From: Chthoniobacter flavus
GTDB lineage: Bacteria; Verrucomicrobiota; Verrucomicrobiia; Chthoniobacterales; Chthoniobacteraceae
NCBI GenBank assembly: GCA_945861435.1
Contig: CAMAUX010000023.1
Location: 18,413 to 82,412 of the forward strand
Length of the DNA stretch: 64,000 nt
Direction: 5' to 3'
The position numbers and the translations under genes were made by a program. This document shows, piece after piece, positions 36,935 through 62,741 of this stretch; positions within the stretch are counted from its first letter, which is position 1, and each line of letters opens with the position of its first letter. The notes below the pieces were generated by a model, which worked only from the letters and a program-made list of their open reading frames with translations, had not been told where the DNA came from and did not search any database.

Positions 36935-39900
36935 ATGAAACTGCAACGCTTCGTCATCCCTTTCCTCATCGCCCTCGCAGCCGTGCTGCTCCTCAAAAAC
37001 CAAAGAATCCACCGCCCCACGGACCACAGCGCCACCCTCAGTCACACCGACCTGCCCCAGTCCCCGATCCCCCCCACGCAAACACTATCCTCGAGCGACT
37101 CCACCCACCCCTCAACTCCTCACACCCCGCAACCGCACCAACTCCAACATCCTCCTTCTAAACCCAGCGCCAGCGCCCCCATGGACGCCGGCCTCGCCGA
37201 CGCCCTGCGCCACGCCCGCTACCAATGGGAGGCCCTCGACCCCAAAGCCCCCCACGCCCGCGGTGCCCTCTCCTTCGCCGCCAACCCCCGACAGCAACTG
37301 CGCACATGGCTCGGCGAACACGGCCTCGAATTCGCCAGCGGCCTGCGCTCCCAACCCGGAGTGCCACCATGGTCCGTTCAACTCTCCCTCCAAAGCGCCG
37401 GACGCGAGGACGCATCAACCCATTCCACGGCCATCACCACCAGCCAGCGCACCCTCCGCGCCGACTCCTCCCGCGTGGAAATCACAGACCCCGCACTCGG
37501 CCTCGTCGAGTGGTACGAAAACCAACCCGCCGGCATCGAACAGGGCTTCACCCTCTCCTCTCCGCCCGCAGGAAACGGCCCCCTCCAAATCCGCCTCTCC
37601 GCCTCCAACGGCGCACGCTTCACCCCTTCGGACGACGCCGCCACCGTCCACATCCAACATCCGGACGGCCGCCCACTCCTCGCCTGCTCCGCCCTCCACG
37701 CATGGGATGCCGACGGCCGCATCCTCGATTCCCACATGAGCGCGGACGGCTCCACCCTCACACTCTCAGTCGCCGACGCCGGCGCACGCTACCCCGTCAC
37801 CATCGACCCTCTCTTCACCAACATCGAGGCGCGCCTCGCCGAGGAGATCGTCACCGGCGATGAATTCGCCACCGCACTCGCTCTCAACGCCCACACCGCA
37901 CTCGTGGGCGCACCCGGCGCCGACGGCATCGCAGGCCCCAATTCCGGCGCCGCCTACATCTTCACGCGCTCCGGCACCCGCTGGGAATTCCAAGCCAAAC
38001 TCGTCGCCGACGATGCCGCGCTCGACCACCAGTTTGGCAACGCCGCGGCCCTCGGCGCCGACACCGCCGTCCTCGGCGCACCGGGCGCCACTGCCGCCTA
38101 TGTCTTCGTGCGCTCCAACAACCAATGGACCCAACAGGCAAAGCTGCTCGCCAGCGATGCGTCCTCCCTCAGCCTCTTCGGCTCCTCGGTGAGTGTCTCC
38201 TCCGAGACCGCCGTCGTCGGCGCCAGCGGTGCGAACGCCGCCTACGTCTTCACGCGCTCCAACTCCCTCTGGACCCAGCAGGCGAAACTCACCGGCAGCC
38301 AGAGCCTCACAGGCGATGAATTCGGCTCCAGCGTTGGCCTCGACACCGACACCGCGGTCGTCGGCGCGCCCTCCGCCACCGTCGGCACTTTCGCCACCCA
38401 AGGCTGCATGTACGTCTTCGTGCGCAGCGGCTCCTCATGGACCCAGCAACAACGCCTCACCGCTTCCAACGGCGCACGTTATGACCGCCTCGGCAGCGCA
38501 GTGGCCATCAGCGACAACACCGCCATCGCGGGCCTTGATAGCTCAGACCCTCTCGAGACAGGGCGCGCCTATGTCTTCCTGCGCACAAGCTCCACATGGG
38601 CTCAACAGGCTCAACTCACCGGCACCTCCCTCGCAACCGGAAGCCGCTTCGGCGCCGCCGTCGCCATCGAGGGCAATCAGGCAGTCGTCGGCGCGCCCGC
38701 CAATGACGCAGGCAGCCAGTTCGCCTGTGGCAGCACCTACGTCTTCCTGCGCACAGGCTCCACATGGGCTCAGCAGGCAAAACTCGCAGCAACCGGCGGC
38801 TCCACCGACGACCTCTTCGGCGCCAGCGTCGCACTAAGTTCCGGCACCCTCCTCGCCGGCAGCCCACAGGACGCCACAGCCGCAGGCGCTCAGTCCGGCA
38901 GCGCCGAAGTATTCCTTCTCAGTGGCAGCACATGGAGCTCCCAAGCCCAGTTGCTCGCAGGCAATTCCGCCGGATTCGACCTCGCCGGTTCTTCCGTCGC
39001 ACTCAGCGCCGACACCGCCCTCATCGGCGTCCCCTACGATGACTCCTCCTCAGGCGCCGACGCCGGTGCCGCCTACGTCTTCACCCGCTCCGGTGCGCGC
39101 TGGACAAGGCAGGCAAAGCTTTACCCAACCGACCCCGCCGCCTCCGCGCTCTTTGGCTCCGCCGTCGCACTCGATGGCGACAAGGCCCTCGTCGGCGCCC
39201 CCATGGCCACCGTCAGCGGCGCCACCACCGCAGGCGCCGCCTACCTCTTCGCCCGCGCCAACTCCGCATGGACGCAGGAGGCCAAACTCACCGCCACAAG
39301 CCCGGTCGCCGCCGATCAGTTCGGAAAAGCCGTCGCCCTCAAGGGCCAGACCGCCCTCGTCGGAATCCCCTTCCGCGACCCCTCCTCTCTCACCAACGCA
39401 GGCGCCGTCTGCGTCTTCACCTGCACCGCCTCCACATGGAGCGTCCAGACCACCCTCACCGCACCAACCCCGGCCGCATCGGATTTCTTCGGATCCTCCG
39501 TCGCCCTCAGCGGCGAGACGGCTCTCGTCGGCGCGCCCGCAAACTCCCCCGCGCTCGGCAGTGCCTACGCCTTCCTGCGCACAGGGACTTCCTGGAACAT
39601 CCAAGCCACTCTCCAAGGCAGCGACACAACCGCAGGCGACGGCTTCGGATCCGCTGTGGCCTTGGACAACGCCACAGCCCTCATCGGCTCCCCCTCCCAC
39701 ACCACCATCGCGGGCGCGGGCGCCGGCACCGCCTACCTCTTCACGCGCACAGACACCGCATGGACCCAGCAGGCCCGCCTCACCGCAGCCGATGGCGCCG
39801 CCAACGATCACTTCGGGTCCGCCGTCGCAGTCCGCGAATCCATGGCCCTCATCGGTGCACCGTCCAAGGATCTCGCCAACAACCAAGACGCCGGCACCGC

Positions 39901-42900
39901 CTACCTCTTCACCTCCACCAACTCCCTCTGGAGCCAGCAGGCACAGTTCGGCTCCGGCCTCGACAGCTCAGCCGGCGATCTCTTCGGCGCCGCCCTCGCC
40001 CTCGATGCCGACACCGCTCTCGTCGGAGCCGCCCTCGACGACACCTCCGATGTCGATGCCGGAAGCGCCTACTCCTTCCGCCTCGGCGAACTGCCCGCCA
40101 TCCTCACCCCGCCTGCTTCGCGCACCGTTGTTCCGGGCACCACTCTCACCTTCACCGCCACCGCCTCGGGCTACGCGCCCCTGCGCTACCAGTGGCGCCG
40201 CAACGGCGTGGAAATCGCCGGCGCCACCGCCTCCTCCCTCACCCTCACCGTCCCCTCGCAGGCCCCGTTCACCGCGTCGGAGGGCAGCTACGACGTCCTC
40301 GTCTCCAACGCCGGCGGCGTCGCCCTCAGCTCCCCCGCCCTCCTCAAAGTCAACGCCCTCTCCGTCCTCACCCAAGTCGATCCCACCACCCTCGACCCTC
40401 GCTCCAACGCCCAGGGGTTCCTCCTCGTGCGCATCTTCCCAGACACTCTCACCGGCACGTCATGGCGCTTCGTCGGCGAACAACTCTGGCGCACCCCAGG
40501 CATCCCCGTCGGCGGCCTCGCCACCGGCGACCGCGAAATCGAGTTCCGCCCCATCCCGGGCTACCTCCACCCCTTGCGTGAACCGGTCAGCATCGTCAGC
40601 GGCTCCCCAACCTCCGTCGTCGACCGCGAATATTTCACCATCGAGGAACCAGCCACCGCGTCGCTCAACATTACCCTCCTCCCCGCCTCCGTCTCTGCCA
40701 CCGCGCGCTGGCGTTTCCTCGGCGAAAACGACGCCGCCTTCCAGCCCTCCGCCACCACCCGCTCCGGCCTCTCCGCCGGAATTTACATCGTCGAATTCTC
40801 CGACGTCCCCGGATACTCCACCCCGCGCCCACTCTCTGTCAGCGTCTCCGAATCGGAATCCAAAACCGCCTCCGCCACCTACTCCCTCCCGGACGCCACC
40901 GTGGGCGCTCGCCCCCAACTCACAGGCTTCGACTCCGTCGTCGCCCCGGGCGACTCCAACCCCACACGGTTCGTGGGCCAGATCCGCAACGACGCAGGCG
41001 CGGGCACCGGCTTCGTCGTCAAACCAAGGGTCGTGTGCACCGCCGCCCATGTCGTCTTCGACGAGGTCGCAGGCGCCCCGTTCACAGGCCTCAAATGGCT
41101 CTTCCAACTCGAACGCGGCTCCCACGACCCCGTCGCCCAAACTCCGCGCGGCTCCTACATCCTTTCCGGCTACAGCACCGCCCGCGCCCAGCCAGGCTCC
41201 ATCCCAGGCCAGAGCACACCGGAATCCCAGAACCTCGACGCCGCTGCCCTCTGGTTCTACGAAAAATCCTCCAACGGCCGCAGCCAGAATCCCCTTGCCG
41301 CCCGGGGCGGCTCCAGCGGTTACCTAGCCAGCGACGCCGCTGCCAACGAGTGGCTCCTCTCCTCCCGCCTCAAAACCATCGTCGGCTACCCCCTCGACGG
41401 CATCCCCCCAGCCAACCAAGGCCGCATTCACAGCGTCCCTCCGCTCAACGCCTCCTTCACCCAAGCCTCCGCGCGCGTCTACCTCACCTCCGACATGACA
41501 TCCTCCGCCGGCAACTCCGGCGGACCCGTCTGCGTCCAATACGACGACGGCCGTTACTACCCCGCCGCCATCTACATCGGCGGCTCCACCCAAACCCGCG
41601 TACGCGCCATCGACAGCGATGTCATCTCCCTCTTCACCACCGCCGAAAACAGCGCCAACTCCGGCCTCAACTTCCTAGACTCCGGCCAAAGCCTCTCTGG
41701 ATCCGATCTCGCTGGCCCCGCCTCCGGCACACTCCAAGTCGTGCTCGAACCCGCCTCCGCCCGCACCGATGGCGCCGCATGGCGCATCGGCTCCAATTCC
41801 TACCTCCTGAGCGGCCAGACCCGATCCTTCCTCCAAAACGGCAAATACAGCCTTCAGTTCAAAGCCCTCCCGGGCTACCGCGCCCCGGACACCCGCATCG
41901 TCACCGTCAACGGCAACACCACGGTCACCGCCACCTACGTCCTCGTCCCACGCCCCGCCCTCTCCGGCCCCGCCTCCATCCGCGTCCCACGCGGCACGCC
42001 CCTCCAAAAACAGGTCGTCGCTAACAGTTCCCCCACCAGCTACGCCGCAGAAATCGTCGGCGGCGGTTCCCTCGCCGGCATGGGCCTCAGCTTCAACACC
42101 TCCACCGGCGAACTCACCGGCTCCCCCTCCCAAGAGGGCTCGACACAGCTGCGCCTCACTGCCTCCAACGAAACCGGGACCAGCGACGCTCTCGTCCTCG
42201 CTCTCACCGTCATCCCACCACCGCCAGTCCTCTCCGGCACATCCACCCTCAACGCCACCGTCGGCGTTCCTCTCCAAAGCCAGATCACCGCCTCCAACTC
42301 CCCCTCCTCCTACTCCGCATCCCTCTCCGGCGCACCCTCCCTCGCCTCAATCGGCCTCGCTCTGGACTCCGGCACCGGCCTGCTCACGGGCATCCCCACC
42401 ACCGCAGGCACCTACTCCCTCACCATCATCGCCTCCAACGAAGCGGGCTCCTCTTCTCCTTTCTTTCTCTCCCTCGTCGTCGCTCCGTCCGCGCCCTCAC
42501 TCACAGGCCCCACCGAATTGCGCACCGTAAAAGGCGCCCCCATCACATCGCCACAACTCCAAGCCACCAACTCCCCATCCAGCTACGCCGCAAACGTCGT
42601 CGGTGGGGCATCCCTCTCAAGCCTCGGCCTCACCTTCAATTCCACCACAGGCGCACTCACCGGCACCCCGACACAGACAGGCTCCTTCCCACTCTCCTTC
42701 ACCGCCTCCAACAGCGCAGGCACAAGCGCCCCGCTCCTTCTCACACTCACCGTCATCCCGCCAGCCCCCGTCCTCTCAGGCGCCTCCACCCTCAACGCCA
42801 CCGCAGGCGTCCTCCTCCAACAACAGATCACCGCCTCCAACTCCCCCTCCTCCTACTCCGCATCCCTCTCCGGCGCACCCTCCCTCGCCTCAATCGGCCT

Positions 42901-44599
42901 CGCTCTGGACTCCGGCACCGGCCTGCTCACAGGCATCCCCACCACCGCAGGCACCTACACACTCACCATCATCGCCTCCAACGAAGCGGGCTCCTCTTCT
43001 CCTTTCTCCCTCTCCCTCGTCGTCGCTGCCCCTCCAGTCGCACCCGTCCTCACAGGCCCCACACAACTGCGCACCCTCACCGGCACGCCCATCACCCCCC
43101 TCCAGTTCCAAGCCACCAACTCCCCCTCCCGCTTCGCCGCAAACGTCGTCGGCGGCGCATCCCTCTCAAGCCTCGGCCTCTCCTTTGATTCCACCACAGG
43201 CGCCCTCTCCGGCACCCCCACCCAGACCGGCTCCTTCTCCCTCTCCGTCACCGCCTCCAACGACGCCGGTTCCAGCTCCCCTCTCCTCCTCGCTCTCAAC
43301 GTCACCCAACCCGGCCGCCTCTTCGCCTCCCTCAGCACCCCCAACGGCGCCCGCGGCTCCATCGAACCCGCCATCCCCACCGAAGGCCGCGTCTTCACCC
43401 AGGGCTCCCTCCTCAAACTCACTGCCATCCCCGCTCCCGGCTCCCTCTTCGCTGGTTGGACAGGCACCACTTCCTCACCCACCTCCTCCACCCCCGTCTC
43501 CTCCTCCAATCCCGCCCTCTCCCTCACCGCATCCTCCCTCATGGAGGTCCAAGCACACTTCATCCCCAATCCCTTCCTCCAACTCGGCGGCAATTACGTC
43601 GGCCTCGGCAGCCCCTCATCCCCCTCCGGCTCCGATTGCGGCATTTCCCTCACCCTCATCGAAACCGGCGCCTTCACAGGCAGACTCAACCTCGGTTCCA
43701 AATCCCTCGTCCTCTCCGGCAAATTCGATTCCAGCGGCAACACCCTGCTCTCTCTCCCTCAAGGCAAGGGCCTCCCCAACCTTCTCCTCTCCCTCACCTT
43801 CACCCCCACCGACTCCGGCTCCATCTCCGGATCCCTCCAAGCGCAGGGCAGCGAACCCTCCCTCAGCACCATCTCCCTGCGCCGCGTCCCATGGTCCACC
43901 ACCAACCCCTCGCGCCTTGCCGGCAATTACACCGTCCTCCTCCCGCCAGCCGACAACACCCGCACCAACCCCGCTTTCCCACGCGGCACAGGCTACGCCA
44001 CCCTGAAAATCGACACCGCAGGCAAGGCCACCTTCACCGGTAAACTCGGCGACGGCACCACCCTCTCCGCCTCCTGCTCCCTCGACGCCGCAGAACAACT
44101 CCCCCTCTTCACCTCACCCGCTGCCCTCCTCGGCGGCTCCCTCTGCGGCTCCTGGAGCTTCGACGCCGACTCCGCACCCACCGCATCCCTCTCGTGGGTC
44201 ACCCCGGCTCGCTCCAAGGCCGCCATCTATCCCGCTGCCTTCAACGGCACCCTCGATGCCGTCGGCAACCGCTTCACCCCGCCTCCCACCGATACACGCG
44301 TCCTCGATTCCTCCTCCCTCCAAATCGCATTCGACGCACCAGAGGGCGTCTCCCTCCCCCCCTCACTCACCGCCACCCTCGACACCAAAAACAAACTCAC
44401 CCTCTCGCTCCCCAACCCCAGCCTCCTCCAACTCACCCTCAACTCCAAAACAGGCGCCCTCTCCGGTTCCTTCCGCCTCGCCTCAAAGAGCGTCTCCTTC
44501 ACCGGCGTCCTCCTCCAGCAGGACCGCTTCGCCGCAGCCCTCTTCCTGCTCCCCATCCAGAAAGCCTCCGCCTCCCTCTCCCTCGCTCCGGTCCAGTGA
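36935..44599 (+). CDS. giant secreted FG-GAP repeat/trypsin-like protease/putative Ig protein
   Basis: A 2554-residue exported protein with an N-terminal hydrophobic segment (residues 6-22) and a Ser/Pro/Thr-rich stretch. Residues about 308-1052 hold 14 FG-GAP-like repeats (pattern FGSSVAL-TALVGAP-YVF-R-W-QQAKL), enough for two seven-bladed propellers. An Ig-like domain follows. Residues about 1340-1590 are a chymotrypsin-fold serine protease with His in CTAAHVVFDE (about 1371), Asp in NLDAAALWF (about 1435) and Ser in SAGNSGGPVC (about 1527). Next come five He_PIG/putative Ig units (about 1675-2125), an InlB-type domain (FAGWTG) and a beta-rich C-terminus. It starts the surface locus, 43 bases before the FecR gene. 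Confidence 0.82.
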   Translation: MKLQRFVIPFLIALAAVLLLKNQRIHRPTDHSATLSHTDLPQSPIPPTQTLSSSDSTHPSTPHTPQPHQLQHPPSKPSASAPMDAGLADALRHARYQWEALDPKAPHARGALSFAANPRQQLRTWLGEHGLEFASGLRSQPGVPPWSVQLSLQSAGREDASTHSTAITTSQRTLRADSSRVEITDPALGLVEWYENQPAGIEQGFTLSSPPAGNGPLQIRLSASNGARFTPSDDAATVHIQHPDGRPLLACSALHAWDADGRILDSHMSADGSTLTLSVADAGARYPVTIDPLFTNIEARLAEEIVTGDEFATALALNAHTALVGAPGADGIAGPNSGAAYIFTRSGTRWEFQAKLVADDAALDHQFGNAAALGADTAVLGAPGATAAYVFVRSNNQWTQQAKLLASDASSLSLFGSSVSVSSETAVVGASGANAAYVFTRSNSLWTQQAKLTGSQSLTGDEFGSSVGLDTDTAVVGAPSATVGTFATQGCMYVFVRSGSSWTQQQRLTASNGARYDRLGSAVAISDNTAIAGLDSSDPLETGRAYVFLRTSSTWAQQAQLTGTSLATGSRFGAAVAIEGNQAVVGAPANDAGSQFACGSTYVFLRTGSTWAQQAKLAATGGSTDDLFGASVALSSGTLLAGSPQDATAAGAQSGSAEVFLLSGSTWSSQAQLLAGNSAGFDLAGSSVALSADTALIGVPYDDSSSGADAGAAYVFTRSGARWTRQAKLYPTDPAASALFGSAVALDGDKALVGAPMATVSGATTAGAAYLFARANSAWTQEAKLTATSPVAADQFGKAVALKGQTALVGIPFRDPSSLTNAGAVCVFTCTASTWSVQTTLTAPTPAASDFFGSSVALSGETALVGAPANSPALGSAYAFLRTGTSWNIQATLQGSDTTAGDGFGSAVALDNATALIGSPSHTTIAGAGAGTAYLFTRTDTAWTQQARLTAADGAANDHFGSAVAVRESMALIGAPSKDLANNQDAGTAYLFTSTNSLWSQQAQFGSGLDSSAGDLFGAALALDADTALVGAALDDTSDVDAGSAYSFRLGELPAILTPPASRTVVPGTTLTFTATASGYAPLRYQWRRNGVEIAGATASSLTLTVPSQAPFTASEGSYDVLVSNAGGVALSSPALLKVNALSVLTQVDPTTLDPRSNAQGFLLVRIFPDTLTGTSWRFVGEQLWRTPGIPVGGLATGDREIEFRPIPGYLHPLREPVSIVSGSPTSVVDREYFTIEEPATASLNITLLPASVSATARWRFLGENDAAFQPSATTRSGLSAGIYIVEFSDVPGYSTPRPLSVSVSESESKTASATYSLPDATVGARPQLTGFDSVVAPGDSNPTRFVGQIRNDAGAGTGFVVKPRVVCTAAHVVFDEVAGAPFTGLKWLFQLERGSHDPVAQTPRGSYILSGYSTARAQPGSIPGQSTPESQNLDAAALWFYEKSSNGRSQNPLAARGGSSGYLASDAAANEWLLSSRLKTIVGYPLDGIPPANQGRIHSVPPLNASFTQASARVYLTSDMTSSAGNSGGPVCVQYDDGRYYPAAIYIGGSTQTRVRAIDSDVISLFTTAENSANSGLNFLDSGQSLSGSDLAGPASGTLQVVLEPASARTDGAAWRIGSNSYLLSGQTRSFLQNGKYSLQFKALPGYRAPDTRIVTVNGNTTVTATYVLVPRPALSGPASIRVPRGTPLQKQVVANSSPTSYAAEIVGGGSLAGMGLSFNTSTGELTGSPSQEGSTQLRLTASNETGTSDALVLALTVIPPPPVLSGTSTLNATVGVPLQSQITASNSPSSYSASLSGAPSLASIGLALDSGTGLLTGIPTTAGTYSLTIIASNEAGSSSPFFLSLVVAPSAPSLTGPTELRTVKGAPITSPQLQATNSPSSYAANVVGGASLSSLGLTFNSTTGALTGTPTQTGSFPLSFTASNSAGTSAPLLLTLTVIPPAPVLSGASTLNATAGVLLQQQITASNSPSSYSASLSGAPSLASIGLALDSGTGLLTGIPTTAGTYTLTIIASNEAGSSSPFSLSLVVAAPPVAPVLTGPTQLRTLTGTPITPLQFQATNSPSRFAANVVGGASLSSLGLSFDSTTGALSGTPTQTGSFSLSVTASNDAGSSSPLLLALNVTQPGRLFASLSTPNGARGSIEPAIPTEGRVFTQGSLLKLTAIPAPGSLFAGWTGTTSSPTSSTPVSSSNPALSLTASSLMEVQAHFIPNPFLQLGGNYVGLGSPSSPSGSDCGISLTLIETGAFTGRLNLGSKSLVLSGKFDSSGNTLLSLPQGKGLPNLLLSLTFTPTDSGSISGSLQAQGSEPSLSTISLRRVPWSTTNPSRLAGNYTVLLPPADNTRTNPAFPRGTGYATLKIDTAGKATFTGKLGDGTTLSASCSLDAAEQLPLFTSPAALLGGSLCGSWSFDADSAPTASLSWVTPARSKAAIYPAAFNGTLDAVGNRFTPPPTDTRVLDSSSLQIAFDAPEGVSLPPSLTATLDTKNKLTLSLPNPSLLQLTLNSKTGALSGSFRLASKSVSFTGVLLQQDRFAAALFLLPIQKASASLSLAPVQ

Positions 44600-44642
44600 C
44601 CTCGCACCACCCACCGCACATTCCTCCTCACTCCACCCCTGC

Positions 44643-48164: not shown

Positions 48165-48165
48165 C

Positions 48166-52144: not shown

Positions 52145-52148
52145 CCCT

Positions 52149-53705
52149 ATGCGCCGCCCGCTTCTCCTCTGCCACCTCGCACCGCTGCTCCTCGCAGTCG
52201 CCTCGGCCTTGGGCGCCAACACCGCCCCCACCCCGCAGATCATCTCCGCCGCCATGCGCCCGGGCACCACCCTCATGGACGTCGTCTACCAGGTCAACGA
52301 CCCCGACGACGCCACCGTCCGCGTCCGCGCACTCGCCTTCGTCAATGGCACCCGCTCCTTCGCCTCCGTCCTGCGCCCCGTCTCCTTCGTCAACGACACC
52401 GCCTCCAACCTCGGCGACTCCATCCCCTCCAACACCACCCGCGTCCTCACATGGAACGTCGCCGCCGATTGGAGCATCGACCTCGGCCAGGTCAAATTCG
52501 AGATCCTCGCCCTCGATAGCCGCGGCCTCCTCGGCTTCGACTGGATCGCCATCCCAGCAGCCGCCGGCCAGCCCGCCCTCACCATCTCCAAGGACGCTCC
52601 CACCGACGCCACCGTCCTCAACGCCCTCTTCTGGCTCTACGCCGACAACGACCCCGGCCTCTCCCTCACCAACGGCATCCTCACCGGCAACGCGCAGAGC
52701 GGCGTGTTCGAGAGCATCCCACTCGCGGATGCCGCCACCGTCCAACCCTACGGCGCCGCCTACGCCCTCATGCGGATGAACCTCCATCCCGCCCCCGTCA
52801 CCGATCTCGCTTATGCCTCCTCAGCAGCCCGCGCCGGCTTGCTGAACGCATCCGGCTGGCATCCGGTCAACAAACCCTTCGGTGGCCTCACCGTCCTCAT
52901 GGCATGGGGCAGCAACTCGAACAGCCAGATTAACATTCCCAGCACGCCCGTTGGCATCATCGCGGCCGCAGGTGGCTGGGGCCAGACCATTGCCCTCAAA
53001 GGCGATGGCACCGTCATCGGCTGGGGCAACAACAACCTTGGCCAAATCACGCCACCGACCGGACTCACCAGTGTCACCAGTATCTCCAAGGGATGGGACC
53101 ACAGCCTCGCTCTGAAGGCGGATGGAACTGTCGTCGCATGGGGCTCCAACGGTTCCGGACAGACCACCATCCCCACCGGCCTTTCCAGCGTCATTGCCAT
53201 CGCTGCAGGTGGATTCCACAACCTCACCCTCAAGTCCGATCGCACCGTGGTCGCATGGGGCAAGAACGACTCCGGCCAGTGCAACATCCCAACCGGCCTC
53301 TCGAACGTCACAGCCATTGCTGCCAAGGCAAACCATTCCCTTGCCCTCAAATCCGACGGCACCGTGGCCGCATGGGGCAGTCTAGCCACCGTCCCCACAG
53401 GTCTCACCGGCGTCACCGCCATCGCGGCGGGCGACTCCCACAACCTCGCCCTCAAATCCGACGGCACAGTAGTCGCATGGGGCAGCAACACCAATGGCGA
53501 ATGCAATGTCCCCTCCGGCCTTTCCAAAGTCACCGCGATCTCCGCCGGTTCATCCCACAACCTCGCCCTCAAGTCGGACGGCACCGTCGTCGCATGGGAC
53601 AAGAACGACTTCGGCCAGTCCACCGTCCCAGCAGGCGTCTCCGGCGTGATCCACATCGCAGCCGGGATCAACCACAACATCATCATCAAGTCGAAGACCC
53701 CGTGA
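52149..53705 (+). CDS. secreted seven-blade RCC1-like protein, paralogue 2
   Basis: A 518-residue paralogue with signal peptide RRPLLLCHLAPLLLAVASA, the common N-terminal domain (APTPQIISAAMRPGTTLMDV, DWSIDLGQVKFEILALDSRG) and seven RCC1-like blades (TVVAWGSNGSGQTTIPTGLS, TVVAWGKNDSGQCNIPTGLS). Blade 5 is again the shortened one (TVAAWGSLATVPTGLTGVTA). The last blade carries an unusual TVVAWDKND (Asp for Gly). The first 150 codons are nearly as conserved as in paralogue 1 at the DNA level, suggesting recent duplication or gene conversion. It overlaps paralogue 3 by four bases (GTGA). Confidence 0.85.
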   Translation: MRRPLLLCHLAPLLLAVASALGANTAPTPQIISAAMRPGTTLMDVVYQVNDPDDATVRVRALAFVNGTRSFASVLRPVSFVNDTASNLGDSIPSNTTRVLTWNVAADWSIDLGQVKFEILALDSRGLLGFDWIAIPAAAGQPALTISKDAPTDATVLNALFWLYADNDPGLSLTNGILTGNAQSGVFESIPLADAATVQPYGAAYALMRMNLHPAPVTDLAYASSAARAGLLNASGWHPVNKPFGGLTVLMAWGSNSNSQINIPSTPVGIIAAAGGWGQTIALKGDGTVIGWGNNNLGQITPPTGLTSVTSISKGWDHSLALKADGTVVAWGSNGSGQTTIPTGLSSVIAIAAGGFHNLTLKSDRTVVAWGKNDSGQCNIPTGLSNVTAIAAKANHSLALKSDGTVAAWGSLATVPTGLTGVTAIAAGDSHNLALKSDGTVVAWGSNTNGECNVPSGLSKVTAISAGSSHNLALKSDGTVVAWDKNDFGQSTVPAGVSGVIHIAAGINHNIIIKSKTP

Positions 53706-55273
53706 AACCGATTCTCGCCATTCTCGTCTTCGTCCTCGGCTTGAGCACCACGCTCCACGCCGCCAACACCGCCCCCACCCCCACCATCATCTCCGCCGCC
53801 ATGCGTCCGGGCACCACGCTCATGGACGTCATCTACCGCGTCACCGATCCCGACGACGCTACCGTCCGTGTCCGCGCACTCGCCTTCATCAACGGCACCC
53901 GCTCCTTCGCCAACATCCTGCGTCCCGTCACCTTCGTGGAGGGCACCGCTGCCAACCTCGGCGACTCCATCCCCTCCAACACCAACCAAGTCCTCACCTG
54001 GAACATTGGCACCGACTGGGGCGTCGGGCTCGGTCAAGTAAAGTTCGAGATCCTCGCCTTGGACAGTGCCGGACTCCTCCCCATCGACTGGATCACCATC
54101 CCCGCCGCTAGCGGCCAGCCCGCCCTCACCATCTCGAAGGACGCCCCATCCACCGCCTCCGTCCTCAACGCCCTCTTCTGGCTCTACGCCAACAACGATC
54201 CAGGCATCTCCCTCAACGACGGCGTTCTCGCCGCCAACGCGCAGAGCGGCGCCTTCAACGGCATCGCTCTTGCAAGCGGCGGCACCGTCAACACCTACGC
54301 AACGCCATTCGTATTCAAACGCATGAACGTCGACCTACCCACTCTCGCAGAACGATCTTACTCAATCAGCGCAGCCCGCACTGGAATCATTTCCACCACT
54401 GCGTGGCATGCAGTAAACCGACCTTGGGGCGGAATATCCATTCTGGTCGCGTGGGGCGCAACCTCGTCAGGTCTTTCCACTCTACCGTTAGACCCATTGA
54501 CCGCCGTGGGCGCAGGCCATTATTTTGCCCTCGGTATCCGATCTGACGGCACCGTCGTCTCTTGGGGCACTGGCTCGGCCACCGCCCAAGCCGGGCTTTC
54601 AGGTGTCACCGCCGTCGCCGGAGGCAACGGTCACTCTCTCGCGCTCAAAGCCGACGGGACGGTAGTCGCGTGGGGCTCCAACACGAACGGACAAACCACG
54701 ATTCCTGCGGGCCTCTCAGGGGTCACAGCGATTTCGGCAGGCGGATATTACAACCTCGCCCTCAAATCCGACGGTACCGTCGCCGCCTGGGGTGACAATT
54801 CATCTGGCCAAAGGACAATTCCCGCAGGCCTCTCAGGCATCACCGCGATCTCCGCAGGATTCAACCATTGCCTCGCACTCAAGTCCGACGGCACCGTCAC
54901 AGGCTGGGGCAGCAATGGCGAAAACCAGGCCACCGTTCCCACAGGCCTCTCAAACGTGACTGCAATCGCTGCCGGCTTCAGCCACTCCTTGGCTCTCAAA
55001 TCGAACGGCACGGTAATCGGGTGGGGTTCCAACACCAGTGGCCAGACGACCATCCCCTCGGGCCTTACGGGTGTCACTGCCATCGCTGCAGGCAACAAAT
55101 TCAGCGCCGCCCTCAAGTCCAATGGCACCGTGGTGATGTGGGGCACGGGGGCTCTTAGTCCATCCACAGGCTTGGGTAGCGGCGTTACAACCCCACCCGC
55201 CTGGCTCACGAACTCGTCCTCCATCACCGCCGGGCTCGACTTCATGCTCGCCTATACCTCCAAGGCCCTCTGA
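53702..55273 (+). CDS. secreted seven-blade RCC1-like protein, paralogue 3
   Basis: A 523-residue paralogue starting at GTG 53702 with signal peptide KPILAILVFVLGLSTTLHA. The N-terminal domain is conserved (DWGVGLGQVKFEILALDSAG). The seven blades are the most divergent of the set: blade 2 is shortened (TVVSWGTGSATAQAGLSGVT) and blade 7 is expanded (GALSPSTGLGSGVTTPPAWL). The DNA of the blades shows less C-ending codon bias than the N-domain, as if the two halves have different histories. Confidence 0.83.
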   Translation: MKPILAILVFVLGLSTTLHAANTAPTPTIISAAMRPGTTLMDVIYRVTDPDDATVRVRALAFINGTRSFANILRPVTFVEGTAANLGDSIPSNTNQVLTWNIGTDWGVGLGQVKFEILALDSAGLLPIDWITIPAASGQPALTISKDAPSTASVLNALFWLYANNDPGISLNDGVLAANAQSGAFNGIALASGGTVNTYATPFVFKRMNVDLPTLAERSYSISAARTGIISTTAWHAVNRPWGGISILVAWGATSSGLSTLPLDPLTAVGAGHYFALGIRSDGTVVSWGTGSATAQAGLSGVTAVAGGNGHSLALKADGTVVAWGSNTNGQTTIPAGLSGVTAISAGGYYNLALKSDGTVAAWGDNSSGQRTIPAGLSGITAISAGFNHCLALKSDGTVTGWGSNGENQATVPTGLSNVTAIAAGFSHSLALKSNGTVIGWGSNTSGQTTIPSGLTGVTAIAAGNKFSAALKSNGTVVMWGTGALSPSTGLGSGVTTPPAWLTNSSSITAGLDFMLAYTSKAL

Positions 55274-55276
55274 CCC

Positions 55277-56854
55277 ATGCACGCCCCACGCACGTCCCTC
55301 CAACTCGTTCTCCTGCTTCTGGCCGCAGTCGCCCCCATGTCAGCGCGGGCCGCAAACATCGCCCCAACGCCCACCATCATCTCTGCCGCCATGCGTCCAG
55401 GCACCACCCTCATGGACGTCATCTACCAGGTCAGTGACCCCGACGACGCCACCGTCCGAGTCCGTGCCCTCGCCTTCGTCAACGGCACCCGCTCCTTCGC
55501 CAACATCCTGCGTCCCGTCACCTTTGTGGAAGGCACCGCCGGCAATATCGGCAACTCCATCCCCGCCAACACCAACCAGGTGCTCACGTGGAACGTCGCC
55601 GCCGACTGGAACGTCGACCTCGGCCAGGTCAAATTCGAAATCCTCGCCCTCGATAGCCGCGGCCTCCTCGGCTTCGACTGGATCACCATCCCTGCCGCCG
55701 CAGGCCAGTCCGAACTCACCATCTCCAAGGACACCCCGTCCAATTCCGCCGTCCTCAACGCCCTCTTCTGGCTCTACGCCGACGGAGACCCAGGACTGTC
55801 CCTCTCCAATGGCGTGCTCACAGGCAACGCCCAAAGTGGCGTTTTCAATGAACTCATTCTCGCTGAAGGAACCACCCTCAAAGCCTACGCGCCGCCGTTC
55901 GTGGTAAAACGCATGAACCTGAGTGTGCCCAGCCTCGGAGAACTGTCCTACGCCAATGGCACCGCTCGCGCCGGCCTCAGCTCTGCCACCAGCTGGCACG
56001 TCGCGAATAGTGCATGGAGTGGCGTCCCCGTGGCCGTCGCATGGGGAAATAACGCGTCCGGCCAGACCACCGTCCCCACAGGCCTCTCAGACGTCATCGC
56101 CATGGCCGCCGGCAAAGACCACTCTCTCGCACTGAAATCGGACGGTACCGTCGTCGCATGGGGAACAGGCACTGCAGTTACCGGTATGCCAGCAGGCCTC
56201 TCGCGCGTTACCGCCATCGCTGCCGGATACAACCACTCCCTCGCCCTCAAGTCCGATGGCACCGTCGTCGCATGGGGAGACAGCACCTTCAGCAAAACGA
56301 CCGTGCCCACCGGCCTCTCCGGCGTCACCGCCATCGCCGCGGGCTACAGCCACTCCCTCGCCCTCAAATCCGATGGCACCGTCATTGGATGGGGATCCAA
56401 CACCCCATACGGCCAGACCACCATTCCCACAGGGCTATCCGGCGTCACCGCCATCGCATCGGGTTACTACCACGCGCTCGCGCTCAAATCCGACGGCACC
56501 GTCGTCACGTGGGGTTACACCGGGTACGGCTTGCGAACGATCCCAACAGGTCTCTCGGGAGTCATCGCCATCGCTGGAGGCAACTGGCACTCCCTTGCCC
56601 TCAAGTCCAACGGAACCGTCGTCGCTTGGGGAGACAACACCTCCGGCCAAACCACCGTCCCCGCAGGTATCTCTGGCGTCACCGCCATCTCCGCTGGCGC
56701 GCAATTCTCTCTTGCCCTCAAATCCAACGGCTCTGTCGCCGCTTGGGGAGACAACTTTTTTGGTCAAAGCACGATTTCTCCGGGCCTAACCGGCGTAACC
56801 ATCATCGCTGCAGGCGATGCCCACGCCCTTGCCCTCAAAGCCAAAGCCCCCTGA
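55277..56854 (+). CDS. secreted seven-blade RCC1-like protein, paralogue 4
   Basis: A 525-residue paralogue with signal peptide LQLVLLLLAAVAPMSARA, the common N-domain (APTPTIISAAMRPGTTLMDV, SELTISKDTPSNSAVLNALF) and seven blades. Blade 2 is shortened (TVVAWGTGTAVTGMPAGLSR), as in paralogue 3, while blades 3, 4 and 6 are near-consensus (TVIGWGSNTPYGQTTIPTGL). It starts three bases after paralogue 3 and ends four bases before paralogue 5. Confidence 0.85.
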   Translation: MHAPRTSLQLVLLLLAAVAPMSARAANIAPTPTIISAAMRPGTTLMDVIYQVSDPDDATVRVRALAFVNGTRSFANILRPVTFVEGTAGNIGNSIPANTNQVLTWNVAADWNVDLGQVKFEILALDSRGLLGFDWITIPAAAGQSELTISKDTPSNSAVLNALFWLYADGDPGLSLSNGVLTGNAQSGVFNELILAEGTTLKAYAPPFVVKRMNLSVPSLGELSYANGTARAGLSSATSWHVANSAWSGVPVAVAWGNNASGQTTVPTGLSDVIAMAAGKDHSLALKSDGTVVAWGTGTAVTGMPAGLSRVTAIAAGYNHSLALKSDGTVVAWGDSTFSKTTVPTGLSGVTAIAAGYSHSLALKSDGTVIGWGSNTPYGQTTIPTGLSGVTAIASGYYHALALKSDGTVVTWGYTGYGLRTIPTGLSGVIAIAGGNWHSLALKSNGTVVAWGDNTSGQTTVPAGISGVTAISAGAQFSLALKSNGSVAAWGDNFFGQSTISPGLTGVTIIAAGDAHALALKAKAP

Positions 56855-56858
56855 CTCC

Positions 56859-58421
56859 ATGCGCCTCCCGCTTCTCCTCTGCCTTCCCGCGCTGCTGCTC
56901 CTCGCAGCAACCCCGGCGTTTGCCGCCAACACAGCCCCCACGCCCGTCATCCTCCGTGCTGAGATGCGCCCGGGCACCACCATCATGGACATCGACTACC
57001 GCGTCGATGATCCCGACGACGCCACCGTCCGTGTCCGCGCACTCGCCTTCGTCAACGGCACCCGTTCCTTCGCCAACATCCTGCGTCCCGTCACCTTCGT
57101 GGAGGGCACCGCTCGCAACCTTGGCGACTCCATCCTTTCCGGCACCAAGCAGACCCTCGCTTGGAACGTCGGCGCCGATTGGAACACCGACCTCGGCCAG
57201 GTGAAGTTCGAGATCCTCGCCCTCGACAGCCGCGGCCTCCTCCCCATCGACTGGATCACCATCCCCGCCGCCAACGGCCAGCCCGCACTCACCATCTCCA
57301 AGGACACGCCCTCCGACGCCGCCGTCCTCAACGCCCTCTTCTGGCTTTACGCCGACAACGACCCGGGACTCCTAATCGCCAACGGCGTTCTGTACGCCAC
57401 GGCTCAGAGCGGCGTGTTTGCAGGCGTTCAACTCGCGAACGGCTCAACCATCCAATCCTACGGGAGACCTTTCTGCTTCAAACGCATGAACGTTGATTTT
57501 GCTACTTATCAGGAAGTTTCCTACGCGGCGAATACCGCACGCGCAGGTCTGCTCTCCACCACCACCTGGCACGCCGCCAACCGTCCCTGGCAGGGCATTT
57601 CAGTCATTTTAGAGTGGGGCGGAGGAGGCAATGGCAGCGGTCAATCGACCATTCCCATTGAAGTCCTCTCAACAGCCGTGACCGCGATCGCCGCCAGCGA
57701 TACCCACTGCCTCGCTCTCAGGTCCAACGGCACCGTCTTCGCGTGGGGGTCCAACAACTGGGCAGGCCAGATGAACATGCCCTCCGATCTCACCAATGTC
57801 ACCGCCATCGCTGCTGGCGGCGCACAGTCCATAGCACTCAAATCTGAGGGCACAGTCGTCGCTTGGGGCTTCAACCCCACCGTCCCCCACGGACTCACCG
57901 GCGTCGTCGCCATTGCTGCGGGGTTAAACCACAATCTCGCCCTCAAGTCCGACGGCACTGTTGTCGCATGGGGAAGCGACTGGTTTGACCAAACGAACGT
58001 CCCCACCAACCTTTCGTCCGTCACAGCGATCGCTGCCGGCATGTACCACTCCTTGGCACTTAAATCCAACGGCACCGTAGTAGCGTGGGGAGACAACGGC
58101 AACGGCCAACTCAACATTCCCAAAGGCCTCACGGGCGTCACTGCCATCGCGGCTGGGGTAGCACACAGCATTGCAGTCAAATCCGACGGCACCGTGGTCG
58201 CATGGGGTGAAACTGCCACAGCCCCACCAACGGGCCTCGCCAGCGTCGTCGCCGTTGCTGCGGGCCGATACAACAACTTCGCCCTCAAGTCCGATGGTAC
58301 GATCGTCGAATGGCCCATGCAAATTTTGTGGGAATTCGACAACCCAAATTCTCTTTCTGGAGTTACCTCCATCATCACTAACGATTTCCACGTTCTCGCC
58401 CTCAAAGCCAAAGCCCTCTGA
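56859..58421 (+). CDS. secreted seven-blade RCC1-like protein, paralogue 5
   Basis: A 520-residue paralogue with signal peptide RLPLLLCLPALLLLAATPAFA, very similar in DNA to that of paralogue 2. The N-domain (MRPGTTIMDIDYRVDDPDDA, DWNTDLGQVKFEILALDSRG) is followed by seven blades, two of them shortened (blades 3 and 6, TVVAWGFNPTVPHGLTGVVA and TVVAWGETATAPPTGLASVV). The last blade is degenerate (TIVEWPMQILWEFDNPNSLS). It ends four bases before the dockerin gene, so all five paralogues plus two more genes appear to be one transcript. Confidence 0.84.
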   Translation: MRLPLLLCLPALLLLAATPAFAANTAPTPVILRAEMRPGTTIMDIDYRVDDPDDATVRVRALAFVNGTRSFANILRPVTFVEGTARNLGDSILSGTKQTLAWNVGADWNTDLGQVKFEILALDSRGLLPIDWITIPAANGQPALTISKDTPSDAAVLNALFWLYADNDPGLLIANGVLYATAQSGVFAGVQLANGSTIQSYGRPFCFKRMNVDFATYQEVSYAANTARAGLLSTTTWHAANRPWQGISVILEWGGGGNGSGQSTIPIEVLSTAVTAIAASDTHCLALRSNGTVFAWGSNNWAGQMNMPSDLTNVTAIAAGGAQSIALKSEGTVVAWGFNPTVPHGLTGVVAIAAGLNHNLALKSDGTVVAWGSDWFDQTNVPTNLSSVTAIAAGMYHSLALKSNGTVVAWGDNGNGQLNIPKGLTGVTAIAAGVAHSIAVKSDGTVVAWGETATAPPTGLASVVAVAAGRYNNFALKSDGTIVEWPMQILWEFDNPNSLSGVTSIITNDFHVLALKAKAL

Positions 58422-58425
58422 TCCC

Positions 58426-61400
58426 ATGAACCACCCGCGCTTCCTCCTCTCCCTCCTGCTCCTGCTGGGTGCTTCTCTCCAAGGCGCCACGGTCAAGCTT
58501 GAACAGAACTCCGTCAACGACGCCACCTCCACGCCCGTCGTCATCACCGCGGTCGCCTCCACCGCCTACCTCGACACCGCCGCCACCTATTCCACCCTCA
58601 CCGCTCCCGCCACCATCACCATCTCCTCGGTCGCCTACCGCTTCACCCACTGGACCGTCTCCAACACCCCCTCCACCTCCTACCGCGATCCCTGGGGCCG
58701 CTCCCTCAACCCCATCTCCATCACCCTCCTCGAGGACACCACCGCCACCGCCCATTATCTGCCAGAAAAAACCGGCACCGCCATCCGCGACACCGACGCC
58801 GATGGCATCCCCGATTGGTACGAACTCGAATACTTCGGCACCCTCGCAAACAACGCCACCTCCGACCCGGACGGCGACGGCGTGAACCTCCTGGCCGAAT
58901 ACACCGCCGGCACGCATCCCCTCTTCCCGAACACCACCCTTGCCGGCGGCGTGGTCGTCGTCGACTCCGCGCTCGTCACCTGCAACCTCGCCGGGTACCC
59001 GAGCTACTCCCTTTCCAGCATCAAGAATGCCGCGGCCGACACCACCATCACCGCCTCCACCACCATCGCCCTCCCGGGCACCGTCGTCACCACCACCGAC
59101 CTCTCCGCCAACACCGCCTTCGGCTACTGGACTCTCGATGGCGTGCGCCAGGCCGATGCATGGGGCGTCGCCTATCCCCAGATCACCTTCACCACAGGCG
59201 CCGCAGGCACCCCCAACCGCGTCGCCATCGCCTACCTCTTCACCGGCGACACCGACGGCGACGGCATCCCGGACGCCTACGAGCAATACTACTTCGGCAC
59301 CCTCGGCAATGGCGCCACCGCCGATGCCGATGGCGATGGCGTGGGTCTCCTCGCAGAAAAAACCGCCGGCACCAATCCTCTCTACGGCAATTTCTCCCTG
59401 CTCGGCGGCGTCTCCTGGGTCGATTCCCTCCTCCAAACCGTCAACCTCGCAGGCTTCCACCGTTACACCCTGAGCAGCCTCCCCGCGGGCACCGTCAACG
59501 AGACCAACATCGTGCCCACCGGCACCGTGGTCACCACCGCTTCCCTCACCCAGAGCACCTTCGGCTACTGGACCCTCGACGGCACCCGCCAGACAGACCC
59601 ATGGGGCGCCGCTCTGCGCCAACTCGCCTTCCCCGTCAACGACGTCGACCGCAACGCCGTCGCCATGTTCTTCAGCGGCGACTCCGATGGTGACGGCATC
59701 GCCGACGCCCTCGAGATGTACTACTACGGCTCCCTCGACCAGAAGGCCGACTCCGACACCGATGGCGACGGCTTCACCTTCCTGCAGGAAGTCACGGTCG
59801 GCACCAATCCTCTCTACGCCAATTCCACCCTGCTCGGTGGTGTGAGCTGGGTGGACACCGCCCTCCTCGTCGCCAACCTCCAACCCTACGAGCGCCTCTC
59901 CCAACTCCCCCTCAACGGAGCCCTCACCACCTTCTTCTCCACCAACACGGCCGCCGTCTCCGGCATCACCGCCGGCGCCTCCTCCTCCGCCGCATTCACC
60001 GACTGGGATGGCGACGGCGACCTCGACATGCTCGTCGTCGGCGAAGACACCTTCCGCTTCTTCCAAAACACCGGCACCGCCCGCTCCATGGCCCTCCAGG
60101 AAGTCACCACCGGCTTCGAACCCCTCGCCGCTCTCATCGCCGCCATCAACCACCCCGTCCTCGCCGGCGGTGACTGGAATGGCGACGGCAAAGGCGACCT
60201 CGTCGTCGGCGGCGACACCGGCACCCTCCTCCTCTTCCCCTCCACCGGCGCACTCTCCGCAGGCGGCACCCGCGTCGAATTCCCCACCGGCTCCACCAAG
60301 GCCCGCCCCGCCCTCGGCGACATGAATGGCGACGGTAAACCCGACCTCCTCGTCCTCCTGGCCGACGGCTCCGTCACCCTCTGGATCAATTCCGGCACCC
60401 CGCCATACTTCTCCGGCACAGGCACCTCGAACTTCCTTGGCACCACCGTCTCCGACGCCGTCAGCATCACCACCGGCGACATCAATCAGGACGGCATCCG
60501 CGATGTCCTCCTCTCCGACACCGCGGGGCGCATCTCCGAATTCATCCGCGCATCGGCCACCGGCTCCTTCACCCTCAAGAGCAAGGTGTGGGGCGGCACC
60601 TACGACGGCTTCGCCTCCGGCCTCACCCTCACCGGCGTCGACATCGAAGGCGACGGCGACCTCGATGTCGTCGGCGGCCTCACCAATGGCGGCCTCGTCG
60701 CCCTGCGCGATCCCCGCGTCGGCCGCCCCGCCGGCGTCACCGCCACCCCGGGCGCGGACTCCATCCGTCTGGATTGGGGCGCCAACGTCGAGTCCCGCAT
60801 CCGTGGCTACTACATCTACCGTTCCGAATCGCCAGACGGCCCCTTTGAAAAACTGATGCCGAACTTCACCCCCCTGCCCAACACCATCGACAAAACCGTC
60901 AGCGCAGGCATCCCCTACTACTACTACGTCAGCGGCGTGAGCTACTTCTACACCCCGGGCAACTCCGTGCCGCGCATCCTCCAGAGCCTCCCCTCCGACA
61001 CCGCAGGCGACGCTGCGGGCAAAGTGCGCGTCTCCCTGCGCCCCGCCTACGGACGCCCGGGCGCACTGCTCCAGATCCAACTCTCCATGGAACTCTCCAC
61101 CGGCGTCTCCGGCGAAGGCCTCCTGCTGCGCATCGGCTACGATCCCACCCAGCTGCGTCCGTGGTCCCAGACGCATGCAGGCCAGCCCTCCGTCCTGCCC
61201 ACCGGCCTCAGCAAACGCCTCGTCTACACCGACAACGCCGCCACCGCCACAGGCGAACTCACCATCACCGGCACCGCCGGCTCCATGGCGCCCGGTTCTG
61301 GCAAGGTCTTCACCCTCCAGTTCGAAGTCGCGCCCACCGTCGCCAACAACTCCGTGCTCGCCACCTCCCTGCTCGGTGCCGCCTTCAAAAATCTCACCTC

Positions 61401-61662
61401 GCGCGATCTCGCCACCGAGATCCTCCCGCAACCCGCTCCTGAAGCCGGCGCCTCCTTCCTCCAAGGCGACCTCAACGGCGACGGCCTCGTCAACCAGACC
61501 GATGCCGACCTGCTCAAGGCACTCCTCAGACCCAAGTCCCGCCCACCCACCACAGCAGAACTCACCGCTGGCGACCTCAACGGCGACGGACGTCTGAGCC
61601 TGAACGACTGGGGACTGCTGACCCGCCTCATCGAAGGCAAATCCTTGGAGGTCACCCAATGA
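58426..61662 (+). CDS. secreted TSP3/FG-GAP/fibronectin-like/cohesin/dockerin protein
   Basis: A 1078-residue exported protein with signal peptide RFLLSLLLLLGASLQG. Three calcium-binding TSP3-like repeats (DTDADGIPDWYE, DTDGDGIPDAYE, DSDGDGIADALE) each head a module of about 150 residues. FG-GAP/VCBS-type repeats follow (DWDGDGDLDML, DWNGDGKGDLVVGG, DMNGDGKPDLLVLL), then a fibronectin-like stretch (RIRGYYIYRSESPDGPFEKL). Residues about 865-1005 match a cohesin-type fold (VRVSLRPAYGRPGALLQIQL). The end is a type I dockerin with both calcium loops, GDLNGDGLVNQTDADLLKAL and GDLNGDGRLSLNDWGLLTRL. Its overlap (ATGA) with the next cohesin gene suggests they interact. Confidence 0.85.
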   Translation: MNHPRFLLSLLLLLGASLQGATVKLEQNSVNDATSTPVVITAVASTAYLDTAATYSTLTAPATITISSVAYRFTHWTVSNTPSTSYRDPWGRSLNPISITLLEDTTATAHYLPEKTGTAIRDTDADGIPDWYELEYFGTLANNATSDPDGDGVNLLAEYTAGTHPLFPNTTLAGGVVVVDSALVTCNLAGYPSYSLSSIKNAAADTTITASTTIALPGTVVTTTDLSANTAFGYWTLDGVRQADAWGVAYPQITFTTGAAGTPNRVAIAYLFTGDTDGDGIPDAYEQYYFGTLGNGATADADGDGVGLLAEKTAGTNPLYGNFSLLGGVSWVDSLLQTVNLAGFHRYTLSSLPAGTVNETNIVPTGTVVTTASLTQSTFGYWTLDGTRQTDPWGAALRQLAFPVNDVDRNAVAMFFSGDSDGDGIADALEMYYYGSLDQKADSDTDGDGFTFLQEVTVGTNPLYANSTLLGGVSWVDTALLVANLQPYERLSQLPLNGALTTFFSTNTAAVSGITAGASSSAAFTDWDGDGDLDMLVVGEDTFRFFQNTGTARSMALQEVTTGFEPLAALIAAINHPVLAGGDWNGDGKGDLVVGGDTGTLLLFPSTGALSAGGTRVEFPTGSTKARPALGDMNGDGKPDLLVLLADGSVTLWINSGTPPYFSGTGTSNFLGTTVSDAVSITTGDINQDGIRDVLLSDTAGRISEFIRASATGSFTLKSKVWGGTYDGFASGLTLTGVDIEGDGDLDVVGGLTNGGLVALRDPRVGRPAGVTATPGADSIRLDWGANVESRIRGYYIYRSESPDGPFEKLMPNFTPLPNTIDKTVSAGIPYYYYVSGVSYFYTPGNSVPRILQSLPSDTAGDAAGKVRVSLRPAYGRPGALLQIQLSMELSTGVSGEGLLLRIGYDPTQLRPWSQTHAGQPSVLPTGLSKRLVYTDNAATATGELTITGTAGSMAPGSGKVFTLQFEVAPTVANNSVLATSLLGAAFKNLTSRDLATEILPQPAPEAGASFLQGDLNGDGLVNQTDADLLKALLRPKSRPPTTAELTAGDLNGDGRLSLNDWGLLTRLIEGKSLEVTQ

Positions 61663-62741
61663 TCCGCTCCCTTCCCTTCCTTCCCCCTTTTTCTCTTTCC
61701 CTTCCCACCCCATCCGCAACGGTCCCCATGTCCGCACTCACCTCAAAGGCCCCCGTGGAAACCCTCGCACCCCTGGCTCCCATGCAACGCCCAATCCGCT
61801 CCGCTGCACTCCTCTTCGCCGCCGCACTCGCCCTGCTCACGGCCACCACCCCGCGCGCGCTCGCTGAGAACCGCACCTTCGCCCTTCCCAGCTACCAAGC
61901 CAATCCGGGCGCCACCTTCGACGTCCCCCTCTCGCTCGACAACGCCAAGGGCCTCGCCGCCCTCAGCATCCAAGTCAACTTCGACCAAACCCAACTCGAA
62001 CTCCTTTCCGTCACCCCAGGCCCCCTCGGCTCCCAGTTCCAATTCTCCGAGGGACGCGACGACGGCCTCGTCAGCATCCTCTTTGCCCGTTCCGAAAACC
62101 TCACCACCACCACCACTGGGACGACAAACGCTGCGGCTCCCCTCGCCTACCTCAAGTTCCGCGCCAAACCCAATCTCCCAGTCGACACCTTCACCGAACT
62201 GGCCATCGCCAACATCGCGCTCTCCGACAGCGAAGCCGTCGTCGACCTCCTTCAGATCGACTCCGTGGCCGTCCTCAACGGACGCATCACCTTCTCCTCC
62301 TCGCGCTCCATCGACAACCTCGCCAACGGACTCCCGGACCCATGGGAAGCCCTTTACGGCCTCGACCCGTTCGCAAGCCCCCTTCTGGACTCCGACAACG
62401 ACGGCCTCAGCAACCTCCTCGAATACGCCTACGGCTCCAGCCCCATCGTCGCGGATGCAGGTGCGCGCACCCCGCGTGTCGAGGCTCCCACAGAAATCAA
62501 CGGCCGCCGTTACCTCACCCTCTCCTTCGTACGCCGCACCGACGACACCCTCCTCCAGTACCAACTCCAGGAATCCACCAACCTCCTCCAGTGGAACACC
62601 CTCTCCCTTTCCTCCCAAATCCTCGGCTCCCCCCAATCCCTGGGTGACAACACCGAACGCGTCACCGCGCGCGGTTCCATCCCCATGAGTGCCGACGCAT
62701 CCTCGCCCCGCGGCTACCTCCGTCTGCGCGTCCAGCGCTAA
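61659..62741 (+). CDS. secreted cohesin-domain protein
   Basis: A 360-residue protein with a cohesin-like domain at about 70-215 (TFALPSYQANPGATFDVPLS, LAALSIQVNFDQTQLELLSV). A TSP3-like repeat follows (DSDNDGLSNLLEYAYGSSP), then a C-terminal beta-rich domain common at the ends of verrucomicrobial exported proteins (RRYLTLSFVRRTDDTLLQYQ). The ATG at 61659 overlaps the dockerin gene stop and has GGAGGT upstream, but the signal peptide (RSAALLFAAALALLTATTPR) only begins after an internal ATG at 61782. If that start is used the protein has 319 residues. The 3' end (LRLRVQR) is duplicated about 140 bases downstream. Confidence 0.82.
   Translation: MIRSLPFLPPFSLSLPTPSATVPMSALTSKAPVETLAPLAPMQRPIRSAALLFAAALALLTATTPRALAENRTFALPSYQANPGATFDVPLSLDNAKGLAALSIQVNFDQTQLELLSVTPGPLGSQFQFSEGRDDGLVSILFARSENLTTTTTGTTNAAAPLAYLKFRAKPNLPVDTFTELAIANIALSDSEAVVDLLQIDSVAVLNGRITFSSSRSIDNLANGLPDPWEALYGLDPFASPLLDSDNDGLSNLLEYAYGSSPIVADAGARTPRVEAPTEINGRRYLTLSFVRRTDDTLLQYQLQESTNLLQWNTLSLSSQILGSPQSLGDNTERVTARGSIPMSADASSPRGYLRLRVQR

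Follow-up and report, generated by a model that had tools for sequence, protein, structure and literature searches.

FecA-FecR is a cell-surface signalling system. Another route inward operates in Sinorhizobium meliloti where, according to PMC7529298, the outer-membrane receptor NsrA, with a barrel at residues 600 to 1200, acts with the CHASE2 cyclases CyaK or CyaD1/CyaD2 to turn an outside signal into cyclic AMP (cAMP). PMC5192318 describes a Burkholderia operon, "BiofilmReg," for a LysM-FecR protein and a CHASE2 histidine kinase, and PMC11557425 reports 13 dockerin fusions, together with one Coh2-Doc1-Coh1 protein, in Limihaloglobus, a Planctomycetes-Verrucomicrobia-Chlamydiae (PVC) bacterium. 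NsrA/CyaK pairs, BLIP-II propellers, and non-cellulosomal cohesin/dockerin proteins are kinds already known. We found proteins resembling all three in one locus of a 64,000-nucleotide stretch of Chthoniobacter flavus DNA, "the window" (assembly GCA_945861435.1, contig CAMAUX010000023.1; G000:C23:18413-82412 in our numbering), taken from a genome (G000) of 5.35 Mb in 105 contigs. Ten successive plus-strand genes, g1 to g10, occupy window positions 36935-62741 and fall into two modules, A (g1-g3, 36935-50346) and B (g4-g10, 50579-62741). We propose, with a probability of roughly 45%, that the locus is a surface capture-and-report device that joins a receptor-cyclase-protease module to a propeller-scaffold module. 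In the open-licence literature that we searched, we found no description of the protease companion, the propeller-g9-g10 cassette, or the junction of A and B.

The receptor and cyclase genes of module A have the layout of an S. meliloti gene pair. On pSymB, a 1197-amino-acid (aa) FecR-TPR protein (U8C43_08340) overlaps cyaK by one base; in both organisms, a FecR-TPR protein of ~1200 aa is encoded directly 5' of a CHASE2 cyclase gene, and g2 aligns as a homologue of the S. meliloti protein over FecR and TPR. We infer that U8C43_08340 is NsrA because its length, its position beside cyaK, and the published barrel range fit. The S. meliloti barrel occupies the last 600 residues, and the barrel of g2 is also C-terminal. 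Pfam recognized FecR, TPR, and TonB_dep_Rec_b-barrel in g2, the barrel over the cut-off, downstream of a signal-like stretch; a plug domain was unlisted in Pfam. The structure model has 22 strands in the barrel and a mean predicted local distance difference test (pLDDT) score of 77.6, and Foldseek matched the barrel to the TonB-dependent receptors FoxA, OprC, FhuE, and FecA with a root mean square deviation (rmsd) of ~9-14. On this model, g2 is predicted to end in an outer-membrane beta-barrel receptor. The g2 protein resembles FecA-FecR in its FecR domain and in the predicted fold of its barrel, which is FecA-like (1po3, rank 45 in Foldseek), but it combines both in one chain, and its partner is a cyclase rather than a sigma factor. 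Pfam assigned CHASE2 and class III cyclase domains to g3, which also has three membrane helices predicted by hydropathy and cyclase motifs whose residues we take to have their usual roles. BiofilmReg likewise pairs a FecR protein with a CHASE2 sensor, but its output is a kinase instead of a cyclase and LysM stands in place of TPR and barrel (PMC5192318).

Unlike the NsrA/CyaK system, the g2-g3 pair is accompanied by a trypsin-like protein and has no known plant host. In g1, Pfam found 14 FG-GAP_2 stretches, He_PIG, and Trypsin_2 (24.6 bits, under the 27.6 cut-off). The trypsin-like domain contains a candidate triad of His at TAAH 1369, Asp at NLD 1433, and Ser at GNSGGP 1526, and the same three motifs occur in a same-genus protein (L050:466-6945). 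The g2 gene was present in 31 of the 325 genomes of the class. We surveyed 47 other g2 loci, excluding the fragments G029:C8, G096:C15:38446, and G373:C79 and measuring distances between stop-to-stop frames (L264 has a large frame overlap, -417); a same-strand cyclase lay at 35 of them, within 300 bases at 27. The protease region of g1 was found in 15 of the 325 genomes, 11 of which also had g2 (1.4 expected); it was on a contig separate from g2 in G032 and G240. A protease protein stood beside g2 at 8 of the 47 loci, namely, in the sister species G002 and at seven f15-family loci; five of these seven have the order g2-g3-x-g1 and two the order g2-g1-g3. At an eighth f15 locus (G368:C49) the protease was on the same contig outside the stretch read. 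We assign g1 to module A because the protease region recurs with g2. These results extend a signalling pair of the NsrA/CyaK type, experimentally known yet little explored, to members throughout a bacterial class, in which a protease repeatedly accompanies it. In the Luteolibacter-like arrangement, an unassigned protein of 415 aa (L239:6786-8033) separates the cyclase from the protease protein. At L248:16027-19170 (minus strand), next to a FecR-TPR-barrel gene, a single chain combines a protein kinase, CHASE2, and a cyclase.

Module B begins with five paralogues, g4 to g8, in which Pfam found RCC1_2 and in which a further domain, the N-domain, lies in front of the repeats. The RCC1-type blades are predicted to form a closed propeller in the g7 model. 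The closest solved structure was BLIP-II (53% identity, rmsd 1.4), and a fold search with g7 (VIA-align) listed propellers only; the modelled g7 propeller is predicted to have the BLIP-II fold. A g7 search that includes propeller-only kin matched 7951 of 7990 scored candidates at E ≤0.001. No Pfam family exceeded its cut-off in the N-domain. The locus differs from BLIP-II of Streptomyces exfoliatus and the RCC1/BLIPII group in its N-domain, its five tandem paralogues, and its partners g9 and g10. One N-domain clade (support 100/99) holds the five propeller proteins, three copies on a 14129-base contig, and P0092. The N-domain of g8 pairs with P0020 of another contig (100/97), from which it follows that part of the array is older than the split of these species. 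Variability was computed from 30 repeats of the window and 274 taken from 46 homologues; it reached 3.0-3.9 bits at positions 9 and 10 (AGxxHS) and 26 (WGxN) and was ≤2.1 bits at the others. This first selection of repeats was biased, as it used 24 positions and left out the three variable ones; with repeats anchored solely on positions 13-22, 29 from the window and 270 from homologues, the values were 2.9-3.9 versus ≤2.1 bits. By index, the variable positions include the sites of BLIP-II Y73/F74 and W152, which we take to be interface residues. The propeller gene beside g9 in the sister species (G002:C209:268-924) has one in-frame TAG in the assembly.

Downstream of the propellers, cohesin and calcium-loop dockerin are on separate proteins, g10 and g9. 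Pfam found FG-GAP_3, TSP3, and Dockerin_1 in g9, whose C-terminal dockerin is type I with two complete 12-residue loops, and a cohesin in g10; the cohesin-like stretch of g9 is visible by alignment with relatives only. Among 16 aligned g9 proteins, 15 had a dockerin score and 9 a cohesin score as well; the g9 protein of L107 also scored as a cohesin, over the cut-off. These are the only Pfam dockerin and cohesin matches of the genome. In the 40 genomes of the family, cohesin was confined to G000 and G002, with a single match per genome that lies at this locus, and dockerin occurred in five, once each, the G000 and G002 copies being g9. A cohesin gene over the Pfam cut-off lay directly 3' of a dockerin-bearing g9 in all six loci read (the window, L051, L107, L109, L112, and L197), with the g9 dockerin over the cut-off in five and just under it in L197 (21.1 versus 22.9). 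This strict gene pairing suggests that the proteins may self-assemble through cohesin and dockerin. As in cellulosome scaffoldins and non-cellulosomal cohesin-dockerin systems, a cohesin accompanies a type I dockerin whose two loops are complete; here, in contrast, the pair is single in the genome, no enzyme domains were seen, and the partners are propeller and TSP3 proteins.

The propellers recur with this pair. At E 1e-60, g9 was found in 9 of the 325 genomes of the class. An N-domain gene is present in 15 genomes, which include all nine, and an N-domain or propeller gene lay directly upstream of g9 in 9/9 (contig G219:C588 holds the propeller part only). Matched by size, 19 contigs were common to the RCC1 and g9 lists (116/120 and 119/120 printed rows, own contig excluded; 20 with it), compared with 0.6 on average and at most 3 in a control with shifted lengths. 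A contig profile scan gave at least 77 loci, mostly of FG-GAP or dockerin proteins of other phyla. The cassette varies: in L059, L060, and L112, NHL repeats replace RCC1 (Pfam, over cut-off), and the g9 variants of L110 and L198 lack a dockerin and contain Ig-like domains. Within each module, a chance neighbourhood is rejected. Module B is defined by these data as a conserved cassette of propellers and scaffold that has no enzymes and one matched pair of cohesin and dockerin, a plug and socket that could serve as a new orthogonal assembly tag. At L059:7781-10060 and L060:6119-8491 (both minus strand), NHL repeats, N-domain, and PA14 share one protein directly before a g9 relative. The g9 relatives at L059:2091-7757 (minus), L060:443-6103 (minus), L195:7427-12913, and L196:4233-9806 (minus) have a C13 peptidase-like region and a different C terminus instead of the cohesin-dockerin end. 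C13 (PF01650) was over the cut-off in L196 and L060 and just under it in L195 and L059, and it is also annotated in P0222, P0231, and P0233; no g10 was present in the stretches read at L195 and L196.

In the device that we propose, the secreted propellers of g4 to g8 would bind outside proteins, and the dockerin of g9 would bind the cohesin of g10, which would hold the propellers at the surface. Perhaps the g9 dockerin also binds cohesin-like stretches in further g9 molecules, so that chains would form with g10 as their cap. The barrel of g2 would sense module B or its cargo and signal across the periplasm to g3, which would raise cAMP, and the g1 protease would make, trim, or remove the ligand. 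A more specific version, which we regard as doubtful, has diversified BLIP-II-type binders on a self-chaining scaffold with a private cohesin-dockerin plug, occupancy read by the FecR-TPR-barrel into cAMP, a protease that releases or processes the catch, and the two halves joined in at least two distant orders. The initial annotation had proposed a surface structure whose status is reported inward; the parts and modules it relied on are present, and the inward second messenger has an experimental precedent in NsrA/CyaK (PMC7529298), while the coupling between them would be as outlined here. If A and B are coupled, the locus would link the capture of an external protein to an internal second messenger by a defined path, and five natural variants of one binder would be available.

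Several observations weigh against this coupling. The g2 and g9 genes coincide in 2 genomes of 325, no more than chance, and g2 and the N-domain in 2 of 324 (1.3 expected, P = 0.38). An N-domain gene stood beside g2 at 1 of the 47 other loci, with none at 50 bits at the remaining 46; this count includes L050 of G002, where the contig ends inside g3, and leaves aside g9-like matches in L055, L257, and L270 that scored lower (28-42 bits). The g1 protease occurs in 14 further genomes, none of which has an N-domain. In G002, the locus is split over two contigs, with g1-g2-g3 running to one contig end and propeller-g9-g10 starting from another. We consider the modules very probably joined there, with more than one propeller, because the records of g2 (P0242, 99.9%), g9 (P0123, 100%), and propeller P0092 (60% to the L051 copy) share the same longest-contig value, 22178. 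As to the receptor-cyclase pair, the cyclase was absent from the stretch read at 9 of the 47 g2 loci and on the opposite strand at 3; the alignment of g2 with the S. meliloti protein ends after the TPR part and leaves the barrels unaligned; a tblastn search of g2 against plasmids returned nothing at 1e-10; and the whole-chain superposition of the g2 barrel on TonB receptors was loose (template modelling [TM] score 0.3 by query, rmsd ~10). Another S. meliloti FecR protein, SMc02177, is dispensable for signal perception according to PMC5498481.

These points bear on the strongest alternative, that A and B are functionally unrelated neighbours whose adjacency is inherited: A would be a sensor of the NsrA/CyaK kind that answers to its own ligand, and B a propeller-scaffold cassette with a separate job. 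We rank it almost as likely as the capture-and-report device. Each module is alone in most genomes, genome-level co-occurrence is at chance, g3 and g4 are 232 bases apart, and L107 has the RCC1-g9-g10 triplet alone among other genes. Against it, A and B are joined in two orders, in the window's genus and in G361, a genome of another order. In G361 (L248), a kinase-CHASE2-cyclase, a FecR-TPR-barrel protein, an N-domain protein (607 aa, with a sub-threshold propeller repeat as its only Pfam match), and a g9-like Ig protein (262 bits with the g9 N-terminal profile) form a compact cluster of four genes that overlap or lie ≤21 bases apart. The N-domain gene that adjoins the receptor gene is the only one listed for that genome, and a rough count puts the probability of finding the two side by side by accident at ~1 in 2000 per genome. 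The same halves together in two orders, whether joined twice or ancestral, favour coupling over accident, although two cases are few. A single indivisible ten-gene system is rejected, since each module occurs alone. The independent scattering in neighbouring genomes that the initial annotation had considered was thus found in part: the modules are mostly apart and co-occur at chance, but their genes are held in two conserved units that are joined here, very probably in G002, and in G361.

It is improbable, in our view, that module B makes secreted BLIP-II-like inhibitors of enzymes of competitors or the surroundings, with cohesin and dockerin serving as an anchor only; the BLIP-II match of g7 and the variability at the indexed places of Y73/F74 and W152, presumed interface residues, agree with such a role, but an NHL propeller takes the same place in three loci, so the propeller type is not fixed. 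A small cellulosome-like complex for polysaccharide breakdown is least likely of all and is disfavoured: cohesin and dockerin domains are present, but no glycoside hydrolase or carbohydrate-binding Pfam match was found among the ten proteins, the dockerin protein has no listed enzyme domain, and further dockerins were not found.

The ten plus-strand genes and their named domains were borne out by the gene calls and Pfam. All ten proteins have an N-terminal hydrophobic stretch, which we read as a signal peptide in nine and a membrane helix in g3; secretion, like the folds of g2 and g7, is predicted. The intergenic spacings from g1 to g10 are 43, 1, 232, 4, -4, 3, 4, 4, and -4 bases, so that the largest apart from the 232 before g4 is 43; the 232 presumes the g4 start at ATG 50579, which is a choice (alternatives, ATG 50501 and TTG 50456), and becomes 235 if g4 begins three bases further on. 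The g10 frame has its earliest start at 61659, well 5' of the likely signal peptide. A promoter that had been placed at 50451 was absent from the sites listed by consensus promoter scans.

Table 1. Genes of the locus, in window coordinates
Gene	Position	Strand	Features
g1	36935..44599	+	2554 aa, predicted secreted: FG-GAP_2 x14, Ig, trypsin-like domain (41003-41533), He_PIG x5
g2	44643..48164	+	1173 aa, GTG start: FecR (~44820-45110), TPR helices (~45276-46478), predicted barrel (~46491-48158), C-terminal Phe
g3	48166..50346	+	726 aa: CHASE2 (~48319-49260), class III cyclase (~49555-50088)
g4	50579..52144	+	N-domain, BLIP-II-like propeller
g5	52149..53705	+	N-domain, BLIP-II-like propeller
g6	53702..55273	+	GTG start: N-domain, BLIP-II-like propeller
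g7	55277..56854	+	N-domain (residues ~28-240), BLIP-II-like propeller (~250-525)
g8	56859..58421	+	N-domain, BLIP-II-like propeller
g9	58426..61662	+	1078 aa: TSP3 repeats, FG-GAP_3, cohesin-like stretch (~61021-61425), dockerin (61465-61632)
g10	61659..62741	+	360 aa: cohesin (61881-62246), sub-threshold TSP3 stretch, C-terminal domain

Rfam gave nothing over the gathering score and no tRNA was found in the window. The locus is flanked on the opposite strand by an adenylosuccinate lyase-like gene (35192-36628), beyond which, leftward, lie genes for DnaX, the small chain of ribonucleotide reductase, SurE, a major facilitator superfamily protein, and an acyltransferase. The GC skew of the plus strand is negative across the whole window, at ~-0.16 to -0.49 per 2 kb.

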